From Desulfatiglans anilini DSM 4660 (lineage in GTDB: Bacteria; Desulfobacterota; DSM-4660; Desulfatiglandales; Desulfatiglandaceae), in NCBI RefSeq assembly GCF_000422285.1, contig NZ_AULM01000005.1, positions 124,001-188,000 on the forward strand: 64,000 nucleotides of DNA, written 5' to 3'. Positions 6,692 through 62,264 of the stretch are shown here, piece by piece (within the stretch, counting starts at the first letter, position 1; each line of letters begins with the position of its first letter). The notes under the pieces are model-generated. The model was not told the DNA's origin, did no database searches, and saw nothing but the letters and a program-made list of their open reading frames with translations. The position numbers and the translations under genes were made by a program.

Positions 6692-6762
6692 TCTTTGCTC
6701 CTGAAGCTTCAACGGCACTGAATCAGAGTTGCCGGAATCCGCTTCGATCTCGTGAACCAGAC

Positions 6763-6878
6763 TTCCACCCGGAAAAGGTCTTTCCGGCCCATCCAGGCGT
6801 CGGTGCACCCGTTCCATGCCGCGGCAGCCTGCAGGCGGCCGATGCGTAAACGATTGATTCCTTTATATATCAGTCAAC
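6763..6878 (-). repeat. Dispersed palindromic repeat, copy A (diverged)
   Basis: Minus-strand copy of the family described at 47169..47300. Shared blocks in order: AAGGAATCAATCGTTTACGC, then CCGCCTGCAGG..., GACGCC, ATGGGCCGGAAAGACC and TTTTCCGG. It lies 72 bp upstream of the TM2 start. The rest of the 408 bp gap between the TM2 and DUF2284 genes (6692..7099) shows only a weak ACAAGG/CCTTGT dyad near 6967..6990 and no credible gene. Confidence 0.6.
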
Positions 6879-7624: not shown

Positions 7625-8132
7625 AGTTCCCCCTGCAGACAATAGCGCCTTCCCGGTGCTGGAGACAGGGTCCGGAGTGGATTCGGGGTGAGGAGTCGGC
7701 GGACGCCGGGCCTGTTTGGGAAAATCCTGCTGAAGACTCCCCACCCGCAAAGATTGGTCAAGCGCGTGATTCGAGGCAGATCATCCATCGGCGTCTGGGC
7801 GATGAGAGTAAAAAATTTCCCGGTCGAGGTTGAACCGTCGCGTTTCGGGCAGAAGATCAGTGCTGCTGGTAGGTTATTAGTTGTCAGGGATTGAGGGCCA
7901 CATTCTCTCCAACTGGCCGTTTTGCTGAATGCACCACCCATTTAGCCAAGCGAGGCTTTACTTTCTACCATATAAGGCGCATTTGCGCAATCCTCTTTTT
8001 CACCGGTTCACTCCAGGCAGAGCTGAAGCTCTTTACCTGTCGAGATCATCTGAGGCGGCTGTACAATCCTGAACATTTCCCGTCGGTCCGGACCATAAAC
8101 AACTGGCATTCCCGTTTTCCTGCTTGAAACAG
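7625..8132. other. Intergenic region, no gene recognised
   Basis: Between the DUF2284 gene and the sigma-54 regulator. Short frames exist on both strands (for example 7891..8127 plus and 7621..7941 minus) but none has a ribosome site, family resemblance or neighbour-like codon usage. The rest of the gap, to 8305, holds repeat copy B and a short AT-rich segment. Confidence 0.5.
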
Positions 8133-8208
8133 CCTCCAGGTCGCTTCCGCACAAACGATTGATTTCCTTGATATTGGCCAAAAATCCTCATCTCAGGATT
8201 GGAAACCA
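8133..8208 (-). repeat. Dispersed palindromic repeat, copy B (half element)
   Basis: Minus-strand left half of the repeat family: GGTTTCCAATCC, ATGAGGATTTTTGGCCAATA, TCAAGGAAATCAATCGTTTG, TGCGGAAGCGACCTGG. It closely matches copy H at 62 kb over this half, then similarity stops at the expected hairpin apex, so the right arm is missing. It lies just downstream of the sigma-54 regulator gene. Confidence 0.65.
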
Positions 8209-8305
8209 GGTTCTACGGGTAATCATTTCCGGATGAAAAGGGAATCCCAGGAATGTGAAGCCTTGGTCACCTCAAGACCGGGGGTTAAGATAACGGCCAG
8301 CGGCT

Positions 8306-22187: not shown

Positions 22188-22285
22188 TGGCGGAAGTGCA
22201 TGGGAATCGAACCCACCTACCAGGGTTTTAGCCCGGTACACCGGATTTGAAGTCCGGGAGCCCCACCAGTGAGCTTTCCACTTCC
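22188..22285 (-). tRNA. selC: tRNA-Sec (anticodon TCA)
   Basis: 98 nt on the minus strand, including an encoded CCA end. The anticodon arm CCGGACT-TCA-AATCCGG places TCA at 22250..22248. A long acceptor stem (GGAAGTG with CACTTCC), an extended variable arm (CCGGGCTAAAACCCTGG) and the T arm GTGGGTTCGATTCCCAT fit bacterial selenocysteine tRNA. It shows that the organism decodes UGA as selenocysteine. selA, selB and selD are not in the window. Confidence 0.95.
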
Positions 22286-25790: not shown

Positions 25791-25792
25791 CT

Positions 25793-25876
25793 CAGAGCCC
25801 CTGCAATGGTTGAAGATCGGTCATGAGACCCTCAAATTCAGAGTCCCTGCAATGGTTGGAGATCGGTCATGAGATC
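25793..25876. repeat. 46 bp tandem duplication before dctQ
   Basis: Two near-identical units with period 46 bp: CAGAGCCCCTGCAATGG starts at 25793 and CAGAGTCCCTGCAATGG at 25839, followed in both by TTGAAGATCGGTCATGAGA or TTGGAGATCGGTCATGAGA. On the minus (coding) strand each unit holds an ATG-initiated 10-codon frame (MTDLQPLQGL then stop) and a purine-rich site. The rest of the dctP-dctQ gap (to 26109) shows no gene; a GGCC-ATTTTTCAAC-GGCC dyad lies near 25973..25993. Confidence 0.75.
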
Positions 25877-26109
25877 TTCGAAAACGCCTTTCTGCCGTGT
25901 TACTTCATCCAGTGGAATGCAAAGGGCGCCTGGCCGGGCCACATCCCACAAAATGTCACAAACCCTTTATCCGGCCATTTTTCAACGGCCCTCGCACAAG
26001 GAAGTTTCCACACGAAAGCCGCTCAGCCGCTCGCTGTCTTGGCCAAACGTCCAAGAACGGAAAACACCCTAAGCCTGAAATAAGCCGACTTGACATCTCT
26101 TGCGCCCTT

Positions 26110-28042: not shown

Positions 28043-28107
28043 GATTGACCTCATTGAAGACCTCAGCCGAGTGTCCGTCCGGAAATGATCTCCCGCTACA
28101 AGCCAGT

Positions 28108-28250
28108 TTCAAATACGGAAATGAAAATTTTTTGCCGATATCAAGGAAATCGAGCATTTGCGCGGAGGCGACCTAGTGGTGGCCGCACAACCAAACGTGC
28201 AGATTGACGCCGAGATGGGCAAAAAAGACCCTTTCCGGATGGAAACCAGC
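28108..28250 (+). repeat. Dispersed palindromic repeat, copy C (near full length)
   Basis: Plus-strand copy with both arms: CGGAAATGAAAATTTTTTGC at the left, then ATCAAGGAAATCGAGC, GCGCGGAGGCGACC, GGTGGCCGCACAACC, AAACGTGCAGATTGACGCCG and the right arm GGGCAAAAAAGACC-CTTTCCGG. It lies in the 374 bp gap between the divergent tatT and rmlD-like genes; the remainder holds a short CTGTTTAACAG palindrome on the minus strand near 28376 and no gene. Confidence 0.8.
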
Positions 28251-28416
28251 CTACCGGAAATCCCCGGGCAGGCGCAAGTCAGAAGAGAGCCGCCCCTGGA
28301 CCCGGTAGGCGCTTCCATCGTGCAAATGGCAATGACTTCAGTATTTTGTAGATTTTTGTCCCGGAATCAAGTATTCTGTTAAACAGGACTTATTGTCGAA
28401 CCTGCGAGGTTATCAA

Positions 28417-36397: not shown

Positions 36398-36534
36398 CGA
36401 AATTCCTCCTTCTCCCCGAAACGGGTTCCGTCAATGGACGATTGGAAATGTTTCCATGCTTGATAAACACGTTCGCAGATGAGTACAATTTTGCGCCTAT
36501 CGCGGAATGATTACCCGATGCAACCCGCGTTGCA

Positions 36535-36821
36535 ATCCGGGAATGAGGGCTTTTCTTCACACCCTTCGGGTGCTCGGTCCCACCGCTTCGCGGCGGGTTC
36601 CCGGTTTCTTCACACGCTGTGCGGGCTCAGTTCCGCCCCTGCGGGGGGGCCGGTTTTTTCACACCCTTCGGGTGCTCAGTTCCACCGCGCGGGGCGGGTC
36701 CCGGACCTGCTAATATCAAGAAAATCAGATACTTACGCGGATGCGAGCTGCAGGCCACGGTTGAGGCAAACGTGCGGATCGACGCCCCTATCGGCAGAAA
36801 GGAACCTTTCCGGATGAGAAC
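36535..36821 (+). repeat. Dispersed palindromic repeat, copy D, with an inserted hairpin cassette
   Basis: Left-arm remnant AATCCGGGAATGAGGGC (36535..36550), then the GC-rich hairpin cassette at 36551..36705, then the rest of the element: GCTAATATCAAGAAAATCAG, GCAAACGTGCGGATCGACGC and CCTTTCCGGATGAGAAC. It fills most of the 668 bp gap between the divergent livK and ParB-like genes (36398..37065); from 36822 to 37065 nothing else is recognised apart from the ribosome site of the ParB-like gene. Confidence 0.7.
36551..36705. repeat. Three tandem GC-rich hairpin units (about 50 bp each)
   Basis: Units of about 50-55 bp begin near 36551, 36606 and 36656, each of the form TTCACACCC-TTCG-GGGTG-like hairpin followed by a second hairpin such as CCGC-TTCG-CGG and ending in CCCGG or GCCGG. 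Related single units occur at about 53998..54050 (copy G) and 61965..61992 (copy H). UUCG-type loops would make very stable RNA hairpins. Confidence 0.7.
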
Positions 36822-37065
36822 TCTTGATGACAAAGGTCCGGCAACTGGTTATACATTTCCGACTGAACACAGGCTACCGGCGAAAAAGGCGTTCTCGGTG
36901 CGCAAGCACACGCACACTCTGTTCAAACAGAAGTGCGGTTCGGGTGGTCGGTACGGGGGGCGGATCGCCGCGAAGGCTTCTCTCCGAGCAATCTGCATAC
37001 GCACCGGATCATACGCTGGCTTTAATAGAAACGCAAACCATTTGATCTTAAAAAAGAGGGAAGGG

Positions 37066-39443: not shown

Positions 39444-39699
39444 GATCGAGGCTGATGCCTCCATACTGCGGCGGAACTGCCCGAGCGGAAGCCCGCCCGG
39501 CGGTTTTCAGAAGGGGATGACGGGTTTCCGCCCCCCTGCAAATGAAAAGGAACGGGCTGCGGTCATCAGGCGGGGATGGAGGCGGCCGGAAACAGCACGG
39601 CCGGGGATTTCCGGCCGGAAAACGTGAATGCAGAGGGCGGAGCGCCGCCTTCATGCGTGTAAAACCCATTCGAAGTCAAGAAGGAGGATGACAAGGACT

Positions 39700-47029: not shown

Positions 47030-47150
47030 ATCCCGGTTCTTCCAATACCGAGGAAATCAAGCGTTTGCGCGGAGGCGACCTGCGGGTCGCCGCACAAGCA
47101 AACGTGCAGATTGACGCCGAGATTGGCAAAAAAGACCACTTCCGGCCGAA
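47030..47150 (+). repeat. Dispersed palindromic repeat, copy E (degraded left arm)
   Basis: First of two tandem copies. The left outer arm is shortened and diverged (GGTTCTTCCAATACC); the core and right arm agree almost exactly with copy F: GAGGAAATCAAGCG, GGAGGCGACC-TGCG-GGTCGCC, AAACGTGCAGATTGACGCCG, ATTGGCAAAAAAGACCACTTCCGG. Confidence 0.8.
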
Positions 47151-47168
47151 AGCTTAAAAATGGCGTCT

Positions 47169-47300
47169 ATCCGGAAATGAGGATTTTTTGCCAATATCAA
47201 GGAAATCAAGCGTTTGTGCGGAGGCGACCTGCGGGTCGCCGCACAAGCAAACGTGCAGATTGACGCCGAGATTGGCAAAAAAGACCATTTCCGGCTGGAA
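47169..47300 (+). repeat. Dispersed palindromic repeat, copy F (reference copy)
   Basis: Best preserved copy, about 130 bp. Outer arms: CCGGAAATGAGGATTTTTTG (47171) against CAAAAAAGACCATTTCCGG, which pair with few mismatches, extended by CCAAT/ATTGG. Inner arms: GTGCGGAGGCGACC against GGTCGCCGCAC around a TGCG loop, preceded by CGTTT and followed by AAACG. The whole is one long interrupted hairpin. It fills, with copy E, the 346 bp break in the iorA-miaB operon and ends at the stop codon of the APH-like gene. Confidence 0.85.
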
Positions 47301-47301
47301 G

Positions 47302-48297
47302 CTAGAGGTAGCTGCCAGCCAGTTCGAAATAAGCGCGCGCGCTCCGGACGGCCTTCTCCTTTTCGAAGGCTTCGATTCCAGGATCGTCCAACTGGAAGCT
47401 GATGACCTTTCCTCTCACAAAGGCGCGGTAAACCTTGTAAAAGGTGAGCAGTTCCTCGCCTTTCCCTTCCTGCGCGAATCTCCGGTACGCATCCCAGAAG
47501 AGGACCGAGAAGGCCGCGCCTCCGTGATAGTCGAGATCCATCATCAGGAAGGCGACGTCGGCGAGTGTATCGCCGTAGCGAAAACGATCGTTGAACTCGA
47601 TGCAGTCGAAGATGGGAATCCCGTCGCTCAGGCAGATGTGCTCCATGTGGAGATCCCCATGGCAGTCGCGGATCCTGCCGGCCGCAATCCGTTCTTCGAA
47701 GAGCGCCGCATGGTCGCGGTAAAAAGCGACGGTCCATTGCCGCAGCGCCTCGAAAAGGGGCTGGTCGATGCTGGTCCCGCAGTATTTTTCGACCTGGGCG
47801 AAATTCTCATCGGTGTTGACGCGGAAGGCCTCTGCCCGTCCGAAGGCGTCGATTTCGGGAGAGCGTTGGGCGGTCCGGTGGAAATCGGCCAGCACCCGTG
47901 CGACACGCTCGACATCCTCCCCTTTCAACTCCCCGCGCGCGAAGACCGCCTTCATCAGGCGCTCCTCCGGGATGCGGCGCATCCTCACCGCATAGTCCAC
48001 CACCTCTCCGTGCCCGGCGCCTACGCAGTGTCTGAATCCGTCGAAGACGACCGGGAGCACCCCTTCATAGATCTCGGGGGCCAGGCGACGGTTGAGGAGG
48101 ACTTCCTGACGGCATGCATGGGCCCGCTTTTCTAAGCTTGTAAAGTCTAGAAACCCGAAGTTGACGGGTTTCTTCACCTTGTAAACAAAGGCATCCGCGA
48201 TAAAAACGAGCGAAATGTGAGTCTGGACGAGGCTTACACTGCGGGTCTCATCCGGAAAGGCAGCGGGCTCCAGAAGATCCTCCATCATGGCGCTCAT
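47302..48297 (-). CDS. Aminoglycoside-phosphotransferase-like protein (COG2187)
   Basis: 331 residues. Protein-kinase-like fold: YKVKKPVNFGFLDF near the N-terminus, the catalytic loop CHGDLHMEHICLSDG and the DFG-equivalent DCIEFNDRFRYGD, ending with aromatic helices. This is the N-terminal half of the usual COG2187-COG0645 fusion; there is no reason to infer antibiotic resistance. ATG 48297 overlaps the PHP stop by 4 bp. Confidence 0.82.
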   Translation of the reverse strand: MSAMMEDLLEPAAFPDETRSVSLVQTHISLVFIADAFVYKVKKPVNFGFLDFTSLEKRAHACRQEVLLNRRLAPEIYEGVLPVVFDGFRHCVGAGHGEVVDYAVRMRRIPEERLMKAVFARGELKGEDVERVARVLADFHRTAQRSPEIDAFGRAEAFRVNTDENFAQVEKYCGTSIDQPLFEALRQWTVAFYRDHAALFEERIAAGRIRDCHGDLHMEHICLSDGIPIFDCIEFNDRFRYGDTLADVAFLMMDLDYHGGAAFSVLFWDAYRRFAQEGKGEELLTFYKVYRAFVRGKVISFQLDDPGIEAFEKEKAVRSARAYFELAGSYL

Positions 48298-53789: not shown

Positions 53790-53977
53790 AGAAATAACCT
53801 CCAAAATTGGGGATAACTAGGAATTTTATTGGCGGGCTTCCAGGATGTCAACCCGTTTTGGCACTCCTCGCCCCTGCGCCTCCAATACGAAGGGAGAGAA
53901 ATCGAAGGATTTTCGCGCAGACGCGGGTTCCACTGGAGCGATGTTTTTGAAAATGCTATAATTCGCAATTTGTCCAT

Positions 53978-54168
53978 AGTCTGTAAATGAGGGCTTTCTC
54001 CGTACGCTCCGCGCGCTTTATCTCGCCGCTTCGCGGCGGATCCCGGTTTGGCGGCTAGCAAGAAAATCAAGCCTCATTAAAAAGGCGACCTGTACAGGCC
54101 GCAGCACGGGCATCCGTGCAGGTTGACGCCTAGATTGGGGAAAAAAAACCGGTTCCGAATGAAAACCC
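53978..54168 (+). repeat. Dispersed palindromic repeat, copy G, with one hairpin unit inserted
   Basis: Left-arm remnant TCTGTAAATGAGGGCTTT (53979), then a hairpin unit with GTACGC...GCGCGC and CGCCGC-TTCG-CGGCGG ending TCCCGG, then GCTAGCAAGAAAATCAAG, AAGGCGACC, GTGCAGGTTGACGCC, ATTGGGGAAAAAAAACCGG. It occupies the gap between the lytic transglycosylase and purine phosphorylase genes (divergent). Confidence 0.65.
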
Positions 54169-54206
54169 GGCTTGCCTCGGCATTTCACCTGAAAAGGAGC
54201 CCCTGG

Positions 54207-59081: not shown

Positions 59082-59366
<285 letters not shown>

Positions 59367-59375
59367 CTAAAACCC

Positions 59376-60356
59376 TTAAACGACGAATATCAGAACCAGA
59401 CTGACAACCATCGCATAGATGGCCGTGGATTGCGAAACCGCCTGACCGACCAGCATCGTTCTGGTCAGATCGCCGGCCGACTCGATGTTCCTTGCGACCC
59501 AGGCCACGGCACCCTCCGCCGTCATCCCGTTGCCGATTCCAGGACCGATTCCGCCAAAACCCATGGAGATGCCCGCCCCCAAAAGCGCCATCGCCGGTGC
59601 CAGAGCGGCCGTCTCGGGCAGGGCCCGGAACATGAGAATGAAGCTGACCAGCAATCCGAAGATTGCGGGCGTTTGCGAAACCGCCTGCCCCACCAGCATG
59701 GTCGTGGTTACCTGGCCCAGGGTCTCCGGATTGCGCGCGATGCCCTGGCAGCTCGCACCGGCGGCCATTCCGCCGCCGATCCCCGACCCGATGGACGCCA
59801 GCCCGGTGCTGAGCCCCGCGCCAAGGTATGCGGCCCACATCGGCATGACGGGAAGGCTTCCCGGGTTCATGAACATCAACATCAGCGCGACCACCATCGA
59901 GAAGATCGCCGGTGTCTGGGATACCGCTGAGCCGATGAGCATATTGGTGGTCAGCCGGCTCGTGAAGGCGGGCTGGCGCGCCATGCCCTTGCAGGCCTCT
60001 CCTGCGGGGAAGCCCGCGCCGATCCCCGACCCGATGGCCCCGAACCCCATGCAGACGCCTGCACCGAGGAGCGCCGCCGCGCGCAGGAGGTTGTCGCCGC
60101 CGGAGGCTGTGAAAAGCAGCAGGATCGCAATGACCAGGGCGAAAATAGCCGCTGATTCGGCGATCGCCTGGCCGACCAGCATGTTCTTCAAGATGTCGCC
60201 CGACTTGTTGGGTCGATAGGAAAGTCCTTCGTTCGCAAGGCCGGCCGTGTACCCTTCACCGAGTGCGGCCCCGATGGCGCCGAGGCCGATGCACATTCCG
60301 GCGCCGACAAAGGATGCCAGCCTGATGAGCGTCGCTGTGTCCATGTCCATAAACAT
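59376..60356 (-). CDS. Fourfold c-like subunit (four tandem c hairpins) of ATP synthase
   Basis: 326 residues, about eight membrane helices, made of four c repeats of 80-81 residues. The helix-2 carboxylate is Glu67 only in repeat 1 (GQAIAESAAIF); the matching positions are Gln147, Gln228 and Gln309 in repeats 2-4 (AVSQTPAIF, AVSQTPAIF, AVSQSTAIY). The helix-1 second carboxylate is Glu34 in repeat 1, then Ala114, Gly195 and Asn276. So one ion site is left per four hairpins. ATG 60356 starts 2 bp after the atpB stop; a longer frame to 60746 is in the wrong frame over atpB. It would mix with, or replace, AtpE in the rotor. Confidence 0.9.
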   Translation of the reverse strand: MFMDMDTATLIRLASFVGAGMCIGLGAIGAALGEGYTAGLANEGLSYRPNKSGDILKNMLVGQAIAESAAIFALVIAILLLFTASGGDNLLRAAALLGAGVCMGFGAIGSGIGAGFPAGEACKGMARQPAFTSRLTTNMLIGSAVSQTPAIFSMVVALMLMFMNPGSLPVMPMWAAYLGAGLSTGLASIGSGIGGGMAAGASCQGIARNPETLGQVTTTMLVGQAVSQTPAIFGLLVSFILMFRALPETAALAPAMALLGAGISMGFGGIGPGIGNGMTAEGAVAWVARNIESAGDLTRTMLVGQAVSQSTAIYAMVVSLVLIFVV

Positions 60357-60358
60357 AG

Positions 60359-61033
60359 CTATTTTACCTGTACCGAGATGTAAACAAGGGTTAGCATGGT
60401 GAACACAAAGGCCTGAATGGTCCCCACGAAGAGGCTGAAGAAGCAGATCAGCAGCGGGGGCAGCAGAATGCTGTAGATGAGGTGGGAAACGACGAGGATG
60501 ATGATCGCTCCTCCGAGGATATTCCCGTAAAGACGAAAGGAGATGGAGACGACCTTCGCGATTTCCCCGATGATGTTGAGCGGGGCCATAAAGAACATCG
60601 GCTCGCAGTATTCTTTCGCGTACTTTTTGAACCCTTTGGCCTTGATTCCAGAGTAATGGGCGATGACGAAGCCCAAAATCCCGAGGCTGAGAGGAGTGTT
60701 CAGATCCTTGGTAGGCTCGGAGAGCTTGGGAAAGACACCCAGCCAATTGCAGAGGATCAAAAACATAAAAAGGCTGCAGATCAGCGGGAAGTATTTCTTC
60801 GCCATTTTTTCGTCGAGGGCATCGCGGGTCAAGTCATGGAAACCGCCGACGAAAAGCTCCGCCACGACCTGAAAGGGATTGGGCAGGATGCCCTTTTTGC
60901 GCGTCGCGAGAAAACCGAAGAGGATCAAAATCGCCATGACGATCCAGGTCATGATCAGCGTGTCCCGGTTGAACACGAGGTTCATGCCGAACAGCTGGAG
61001 GGTCCACTGCGGGATACTGGTCAGGTCTTCCAT
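60359..61033 (-). CDS. atpB: ATP synthase Fo, a subunit
   Basis: 224 residues, five to six membrane helices. The essential Arg lies in IAKVVSISFRLYGNILGG, with the last helix region LFVGTIQAFVFTMLTLVYIS conserved. N-terminal part: KGILPNPFQVVAELFV and LCNWLGVFPKL. Forms the ion half-channels against the c ring. It precedes the fourfold c gene by 2 bp. Confidence 0.95.
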   Translation of the reverse strand: MEDLTSIPQWTLQLFGMNLVFNRDTLIMTWIVMAILILFGFLATRKKGILPNPFQVVAELFVGGFHDLTRDALDEKMAKKYFPLICSLFMFLILCNWLGVFPKLSEPTKDLNTPLSLGILGFVIAHYSGIKAKGFKKYAKEYCEPMFFMAPLNIIGEIAKVVSISFRLYGNILGGAIIILVVSHLIYSILLPPLLICFFSLFVGTIQAFVFTMLTLVYISVQVK

Positions 61034-61760: not shown

Positions 61761-62048
61761 TCCGATGCACGCGCGGATTGGGGCACATCTATAGAATGAA
61801 AGACACCGTCTGTCAAGGGCAAAAATGAGAAGAAATACTCTGTCCACGCGATGCCAGGGGCCCGCGGCGGGTAGGACAAGGGCCTGCTCGGTCTCCCCGT
61901 TGTTTCAGAGTGTTCCGGGTCCTCCGCCGCGCCGCTCCCTGCACTTCGAAGCAGGAAGAAATTCAGTCCCACCGCTTCGCGGCGGGTCCCGGTTTGGCCA
62001 ATAGCTAGATCCATCCGGAAAAGAGCATCCGGCGCGGTAAAGTTTCCA

Positions 62049-62180
62049 ATCCGGAAATGAGGATTTTTGGCCAATGTCTAGGAAATCAAGCGTTTGCGCG
62101 GAGGCGGCCTGGTGGTCGCCGCACAATCAAAGGTGCAGTTGGACGCCGAGATGGGCCAAAAAGCCCCTTTCCGGATGGAA
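62049..62180 (+). repeat. Dispersed palindromic repeat, copy H (near full length)
   Basis: Left arm CCGGAAATGAGGATTTTTGG (62051), TCTAGGAAATCAAGCG, CGCGGAGGCGGCCTGGTGG, GCCGCACAATCAA, GGTGCAGTTGGACGCCG and right arm ATGGGCCAAAAAGCCCC-TTTCCGGATGG. Upstream, 61965..61992 carries one hairpin unit (CCCACCGC-TTCG-CGGCGGG) followed by GGTTTGGCCAATAGCTAG, a second partial left part. The gap 61761..62264 otherwise holds the PadR promoter region. Confidence 0.8.
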
Positions 62181-62264
62181 TCTTGTTGACCGGTCGTTTT
62201 ATTGTGTAATATGGGTAGTATCATAGTCTGTAATATTCCGATAAACAATGAGACTTGGTTGAAG

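Follow-up and report, generated by a model that had tools for sequence, protein, structure and literature searches.

The 64,000-nucleotide stretch of DNA analysed here (the window) carries long palindromic repeats at eight places, and these raise the question of what kind of element they are, how it spreads, and whether its hairpin is more than the filler of a mobile repeat. The eight places (6763 and 8133 on the minus strand and 28108, 36535, 47030, 47169, 53978, and 62049 on the plus strand) form one family by repeat search, blastn, and a sequence profile, as an earlier note on this sequence had proposed, and the consensus blocks quoted there are found in the window sequence. The profile E values of the window copies range from 2e-60 (28056-28259) to 5e-10 (6755-6868), and reversed sequences used as a control gave zero profile matches at E≤1e-4. 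An intact copy consists of a 5' module of about 35 bp, itself a small hairpin, followed by a 141-bp long hairpin that bears its own end repeats, GTTTCC...GGAAAC. The view of the repeat as one long imperfect hairpin is borne out by the latter, which is described by a 50-pair model, and the length of about 130 bp given previously fits this core, but the intact element is longer, at 176 bp. Such a copy is located at 28071-28246 on the plus strand (5' module, 28071-28105; long hairpin, 28106-28246), and its flanks, CAGCCGA and CAGCCTA, match at 6 of 7 positions. In Geotalea, the 5' module is a near-perfect hairpin of 30 bp. Of 43 picked loci, 30 have a long hairpin of 140 to 143 bp; those remaining were cut, interrupted, or mis-trimmed by the end-finder.

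The other window copies are variants of this layout. A second composite copy, at 62008-62182 on the plus strand (5' module from 62008; long hairpin, 62042-62182), has no exact target duplication at its flanks. The tandem array at 47037-47302, also on the plus strand, has a 149-bp period and comprises unit 1 (47037-47158, detected by the profile), with a truncated left arm, and unit 2 (47163-47302), without a 5' module; the corresponding locus of G001, a sister genome of the same genus that is syntenic with the window's own assembly (G000) and 95% identical to it over the 4 kb compared, has three units instead of two. Two plus-strand copies are diverged: the composite copy at 36476-36829 has its left arm interrupted by small hairpins at approximately 36552-36708, and that at 53974-54178, found by repeat search and profile, contains an extra hairpin insert at 53995-54049. 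On the minus strand, 8132-8245 is a left half (profile) that retains the 5' module and left arm and has lost the right arm, and no element is present at the syntenic place in G001; 6755-6868 is what remains, in diverged form, of the core and right arm (blastn and profile). The extra small hairpins of some copies always lie at profile position 90, in the left arm. They are GC rich (CACACCCTTCGGGTGCTCGGTCCCACCGCTTCGCGGCGGGTCCCGGTTTGGCC-like), occur as one to three inserts, and are also found free, so to speak a repeat inside a repeat; their places in the window are 36552-36708, 53995-54049, and 61941-61995, the last being a free plus-strand relic recognized by repeat search. The tandem units and inserted hairpins would be products of later recombination. 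The description of all copies as intergenic holds for most, as 127 of 142 matches in three stretches are less than 10% predicted coding by a simple codon-model gene finder, but not for 6755-6868, which overlaps predicted coding sequence by 55%. Other repeats in the window include a tandem 45-bp repeat of two units (25792-25882) and several c-subunit-like repeats in what we take, from the sequence, to be an ATP synthase region (59082-60746, minus strand); four of these share one long reading frame (59376-60746), and a separate gene (59082-59339) holds another.

The family extends far beyond the window. A first look gave 351 candidates in G000 (4.67 Mb) and 463 in G001, which are candidates rather than counts, and the possibility that a genome-wide search would yield no further copies is thereby dismissed. 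In the profile census, 211 kb of G000 yielded 16 joined elements, and stretches of 220 and 800 kb of G001 yielded 28 and 74, respectively, which is 118 in 1.22 Mb, or 76 to 127 per Mb depending on the stretch; extrapolation gives approximately 350 copies in G000 and 480 in G001. The mean column identity among 34 copies from the own genome is 94%. Of the 61 genomes of the order searched by blastn, 27 have the element. An exact-pattern scan of genome contigs returned at least 120 stretches, and 118 of the 120 listed are real elements, with two chance pattern matches (L103 and L115) being left out; among the matches listed (80 titles), most are from Desulfobacterales and Desulfuromonadales, including Geotalea toluenoxydans. 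Matches to a covariance model occur in 38 of 148 genomes spread over the phylum, some of which have other types of ends. Plasmids and phages gave no match to the element.

The ends and flanks of these copies reveal how they were dispersed. The element terminates in inverted repeats, GTnTCCATCC...GGATGGAAAC, and 57 of 139 unique two-ended copies are flanked by exact target duplications, 51 of 6 bp and 6 of 7 bp, compared with a mean of 2.6 when the right flanks are shuffled; the other 82 are without an exact duplication. The 6-bp duplications follow the rule TANNTA (T in 40, A in 48, T in 47, and A in 45 of the 51 at the four fixed positions). Exact duplications of either length are found in every source, namely, 3 of 14 copies from G000, 4 of 17 from G001, 9 of 15 from relatives of the order, 25 of 58 genome-contig loci, and 16 of 35 from Geotalea and others. 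In addition, comparison of orthologous sites identified three loci at which either G000 or G001 carries the element and the other genome has an empty site with a single target copy. Read base by base, the duplications at these loci are TACCTA/TACCTG, GAAGTA/GAAGCA, and GAGTGTA/GAGTGTA. One of the empty sites lies in the window near 39480 (approximately 39481-39591), and its filled counterpart is the copy at the syntenic G001 place 3891072-3891313. The repeats are thus a non-autonomous transposon of the MITE type, being 176 bp long, non-coding, and dispersed, with terminal inverted repeats (TIRs), target duplications, empty sites, and ends in common with an autonomous transposon. The earlier suggestion that they are MITE-like is thereby borne out.

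The autonomous transposon was found with the ISNCY_1 model (NF033593), which detects insertion sequences (ISs) with the same ends as the MITE in G001 and G016. We take this partner to be of the ISDol1 type. The three G001 copies are 1,693 to 1,698 bp (about 1.69 kb) long, with the ends GTTTCCATCCGGAAA and TTTCCGGAT(G/A)GAAAC. Only one of them (L419) has a perfect duplication, TAAATA, on both flanks; the flanks of the other two do not match (cataaca/tacttac and TAGGTA/TACCTA). In the last case (L417; G001 2157555), each flank is the reverse complement of the other, as would fit an exchange or inversion of one end. The G016 copy (L420) is flanked by a TAATTA duplication. The transposases score 438.9 and 449.7 bits, against the curated cutoff of 325 for NF033593, and contain a DDE domain (DDE_Tnp_1). 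The right end of the IS resembles the MITE arm over approximately 27 bp, with a score of 38 versus a shuffled maximum of 21, and at the other end, 15 of 15 bp are identical, while the interiors of the two show no likeness. The MITE therefore agrees with this ISNCY-family IS in terminal sequence and TANNTA duplication and differs from it in lacking a transposase and in its interior. In the relevant passage of one paper, IS1202 and ISDol1 are named as ISNCY subfamilies (PMC8147514). The ISNCY_1 transposase, or one like it, would recognize the common ends and move the MITE in trans, and judging from the sequences, the IS is likely its trans-mobilizer.

Several observations speak against this partner. 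No intact ISNCY_1 gene occurs in G000, where the best match is 25 bits, or in other copy-rich genomes, including those of Geotalea with up to 40 matched copies; none of five such genomes has a match over the cutoff, and G067 has one broken match. Matches of at least 50 bits are present in 11 genomes, and blastn detects the MITE in 5 of these. For G000 and Geotalea, it must therefore be assumed that a different element moved the MITE in trans or that it was moved in the past. Other candidates were rejected. None of 52 loci with PF14104 or PF01609 transposases in the 61 relatives is flanked by MITE ends, L266 being merely a MITE copy near an IS, and IS5-like copies with the TIR CTTATCCGTAAATA were judged to be a chance likeness. 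A scan of up to 2.9 Mb, outside of which the three G001 IS places lie, revealed no convincing pair of ends with a duplication more than 500 bp apart. Both the mobility of the repeat and the type of its partner are well supported.

Transposition accounts for the spread of the repeat, and its hairpin was analysed in an alignment of 31 elements of different origin, consisting of the 30 loci of 140 to 143 bp and a second window copy, with orientation set by the sequence profile and not by structure. In this alignment, 96.7% of cells are paired in the 50-pair hairpin. Both sides have changed in 25 of the 50 pairs, compared with 13.9 in shuffled and 6 to 10 in slid controls. The predicted RNA folding energy is lower on the plus strand in 31 of 31 elements, and the cells of the pairs on this strand include 93 G-U and 8 A-C. 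Among copies of the own genome, the plus strand is favored in only 26 of 34. When 39 wider relatives were aligned to the model, the plus strand was favored in 37, with 153 G-U and 17 A-C; both sides have changed in 43 of 50 pairs, although this alignment leans toward structure. The strand test on the 39 relatives omits two reverse-strand self matches that are included in the 43 of 50. Kinship among the sequences inflates the shuffle-based controls and weakens these covariation and strand numbers. Conservation is among the highest in two unpaired blocks, AGGTCAAGGAA and TGACGCAGAG, which persist while the stems change. Across the Desulfobacterota, the 141-bp hairpin thus keeps its length and, through compensatory changes, its pairing, and it combines the compensatory changes of a structured RNA with a strand preference.

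An ordinary MITE, whose palindrome is kept by homogenization of the arms during transposition or DNA repair and whose core has no function, would also contain a hairpin, and the ends, the duplications, and the IS partner explain dispersal fully. We nevertheless regard this reading as rather doubtful. Homogenization acts equally on both strands and provides no source for the excess of G-U over A-C or for the uniform strand preference of the 31 elements, and the unpaired blocks persist where the stems do not. The simplest interpretation is selection acting on a single strand, because equalizing of the arms at the DNA level would not favor G-U over A-C. The core would therefore be, in our view, a passenger under selection that works in single-stranded hairpin form, either as RNA or as single-stranded DNA, beyond serving as spacer DNA.

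The core also occurs in other settings, and its survival between other ends and without ends is a further point against functionless filler. The 20 places from the covariance search include some with ISNCY-type ends and others without. In G076 and G137, the core lies between the unrelated ends GAGACCTTTGAAAAATG...CAAAGGTCTC, and 4 of 9 cases show exact duplications of 5 bp; L444, L445, L449, and L452 of these genomes represent a different MITE type with a related core. The same core variant is found between ISNCY-like ends in G004, G007, G197, and G208. In G129, G163, and G092, the core has neither transposon-like ends nor a visible duplication, only varied outer stems, and the TIR-less relatives L464 to L483 (G129 and G163) are placed between genes. 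Ends and core are therefore separable and modular. The small 5' module is likewise found free: three of the six free copies of the 30-bp module read in G067 have exact duplications (TAATCTA, TATTTA, and TAAATA). Such free mini-hairpins with 6- to 7-bp duplications are located at L334 2942 (minus), L335 2798 (plus), and L336 3082 (plus), and if mobile, they would be very small transposable units. L054, a 141-bp element without the 5' module, also has a target duplication, and on the grounds of both types of duplication, the module and the long hairpin seem able to move alone or fused. It is quite possible, and we put it forward tentatively, that the core represents a strand-specific hairpin module of the Desulfobacterota in its own right, acquired by two or more unrelated sets of transposon ends and persisting or spreading without ends as well, an advantageous cassette rather than MITE filler. 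If so, this system would have its smallest units in the free 30-bp mini-hairpins.

If the active strand is RNA, it might be a cis-acting element of mRNA leaders, such as a regulator or an RNase III site, that was spread incidentally by transposition. The gene surroundings in part suggest this. The 66 gaps with elements in G001 comprise 37 tandem, 26 divergent, and 3 convergent gaps, compared with the 11 to 13 convergent gaps expected from the number of gaps or their bases. In the TIR-less set of 23, a start codon with a Shine-Dalgarno sequence is found no more than 80 nt from the left edge in 12 cases and from the right edge in 2, the relatives in these cases being directly upstream of the start codon. 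The corresponding numbers for ISNCY-type copies of G001 are 2 of 68 on the left and 10 of 68 on the right. However, the elements in the tandem gaps of G001 are oriented to the gene in the same direction in 16 cases and in the opposite direction in 21, and this random orientation argues against a simple mRNA-leader role and agrees with an ordinary MITE. Furthermore, the mRNA in the TIR-less cases would mostly carry the less stable, worse-folding strand, and the avoidance of convergent gaps may be a mere effect of A+T-rich TANNTA targets. A leader element thus appears unlikely. The earlier idea of an RNA-acting element may still hold, in that the core shows strand-specific structural conservation, but in G001 its orientation to neighboring genes is random.

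A strand-specific hairpin would also be expected of an ERIC- or REP-like palindrome that spreads by a single-strand, RAYT-like mechanism, and a further parallel is that the TIR-less relatives lie beside stop codons: in 7 of 23, a minus-strand ORF of at least 150 amino acids stops no more than 5 nt from the right edge. The TIRs, the 6-bp duplications, and the DDE-type partner IS largely refute this mechanism for the window form, and a search of 20,395 Escherichia coli records gave no match, leaving it very improbable. A MITE with an ISNCY_1-type partner in trans and a selected single-stranded hairpin core is, overall, the reading that we consider highly probable. MITEs are normally seen as ends with decaying filler; here, the filler is the best-conserved part, spans the whole phylum, is conserved on one strand, and switches ends. 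The family therefore offers a testable case of a non-autonomous transposon that spreads by carrying a useful or self-serving hairpin. Its several hundred copies in each of these genomes can now be annotated with a covariance model, and both a partner (the ISNCY_1 IS) and a target rule (TANNTA) have been named.

The relation of the family to known systems was assessed by sequence and by structure. The E. coli search mentioned above, made with window positions 61990-62200, returned nothing at E≤0.01; the records presumably contain ERIC and REP, and identity with either was ruled out. In the window, Rfam recognizes only a tRNA-Sec (22192-22285, minus strand, 71.7 bits), which indicates a selenocysteine-using organism. 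The element and 18 stretches with relatives have no Rfam match at the gathering score; for the 18 stretches, two riboswitch matches fall below it, and the other matches are at chance level. The blocks are therefore not parts of known ERIC, REP, or Rfam families, and the main text of openly licensed papers, searched by sequence strings and by MITE, ISNCY, and RNA topics, yielded among the matches listed no earlier description of the element; as far as these searches reach, the MITE family is new.

The likeness to ERIC that was first pointed out is one of size and shape and goes no further. Both are long imperfect hairpins that are intergenic and multicopy, whereas the present element is longer, makes 6-bp duplications, and has no sequence match to it. 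Closer in lineage, the relevant passage of a review describes Chunjie as a MITE of Geobacter uraniireducens Rf4 (PMC10969869), and this MITE was suspected because of its size range and host. G067 is probably this strain, as it has duplicated phoU genes, and the Chunjie-1 insertion was located there via the duplicated phoU/pst operons (L344, approximately 7764-8019; TIR CAGCGTTGTCCGGTTTGGTTT). Chunjie was ruled out, with no profile or blastn match to Chunjie-1: as far as that passage describes it, it is likewise a hairpin MITE of the same lineage and of a similar size range, and it differs in its TIR and shares no sequence homology with the element. Multicopy families based on intergenic palindromes are mentioned, in the parts of the genome papers concerned, for Geobacter metallireducens, G. 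bemidjiensis, and Pelobacter carbinolicus (PMC2700814, PMC2996986, and PMC3543383), and one of these may be a member of the present family. A Porphyromonas gingivalis MITE with an inner minisatellite (PMC4596501) is comparable in another respect, since it is reported to carry variable inner repeats, as the present element does.
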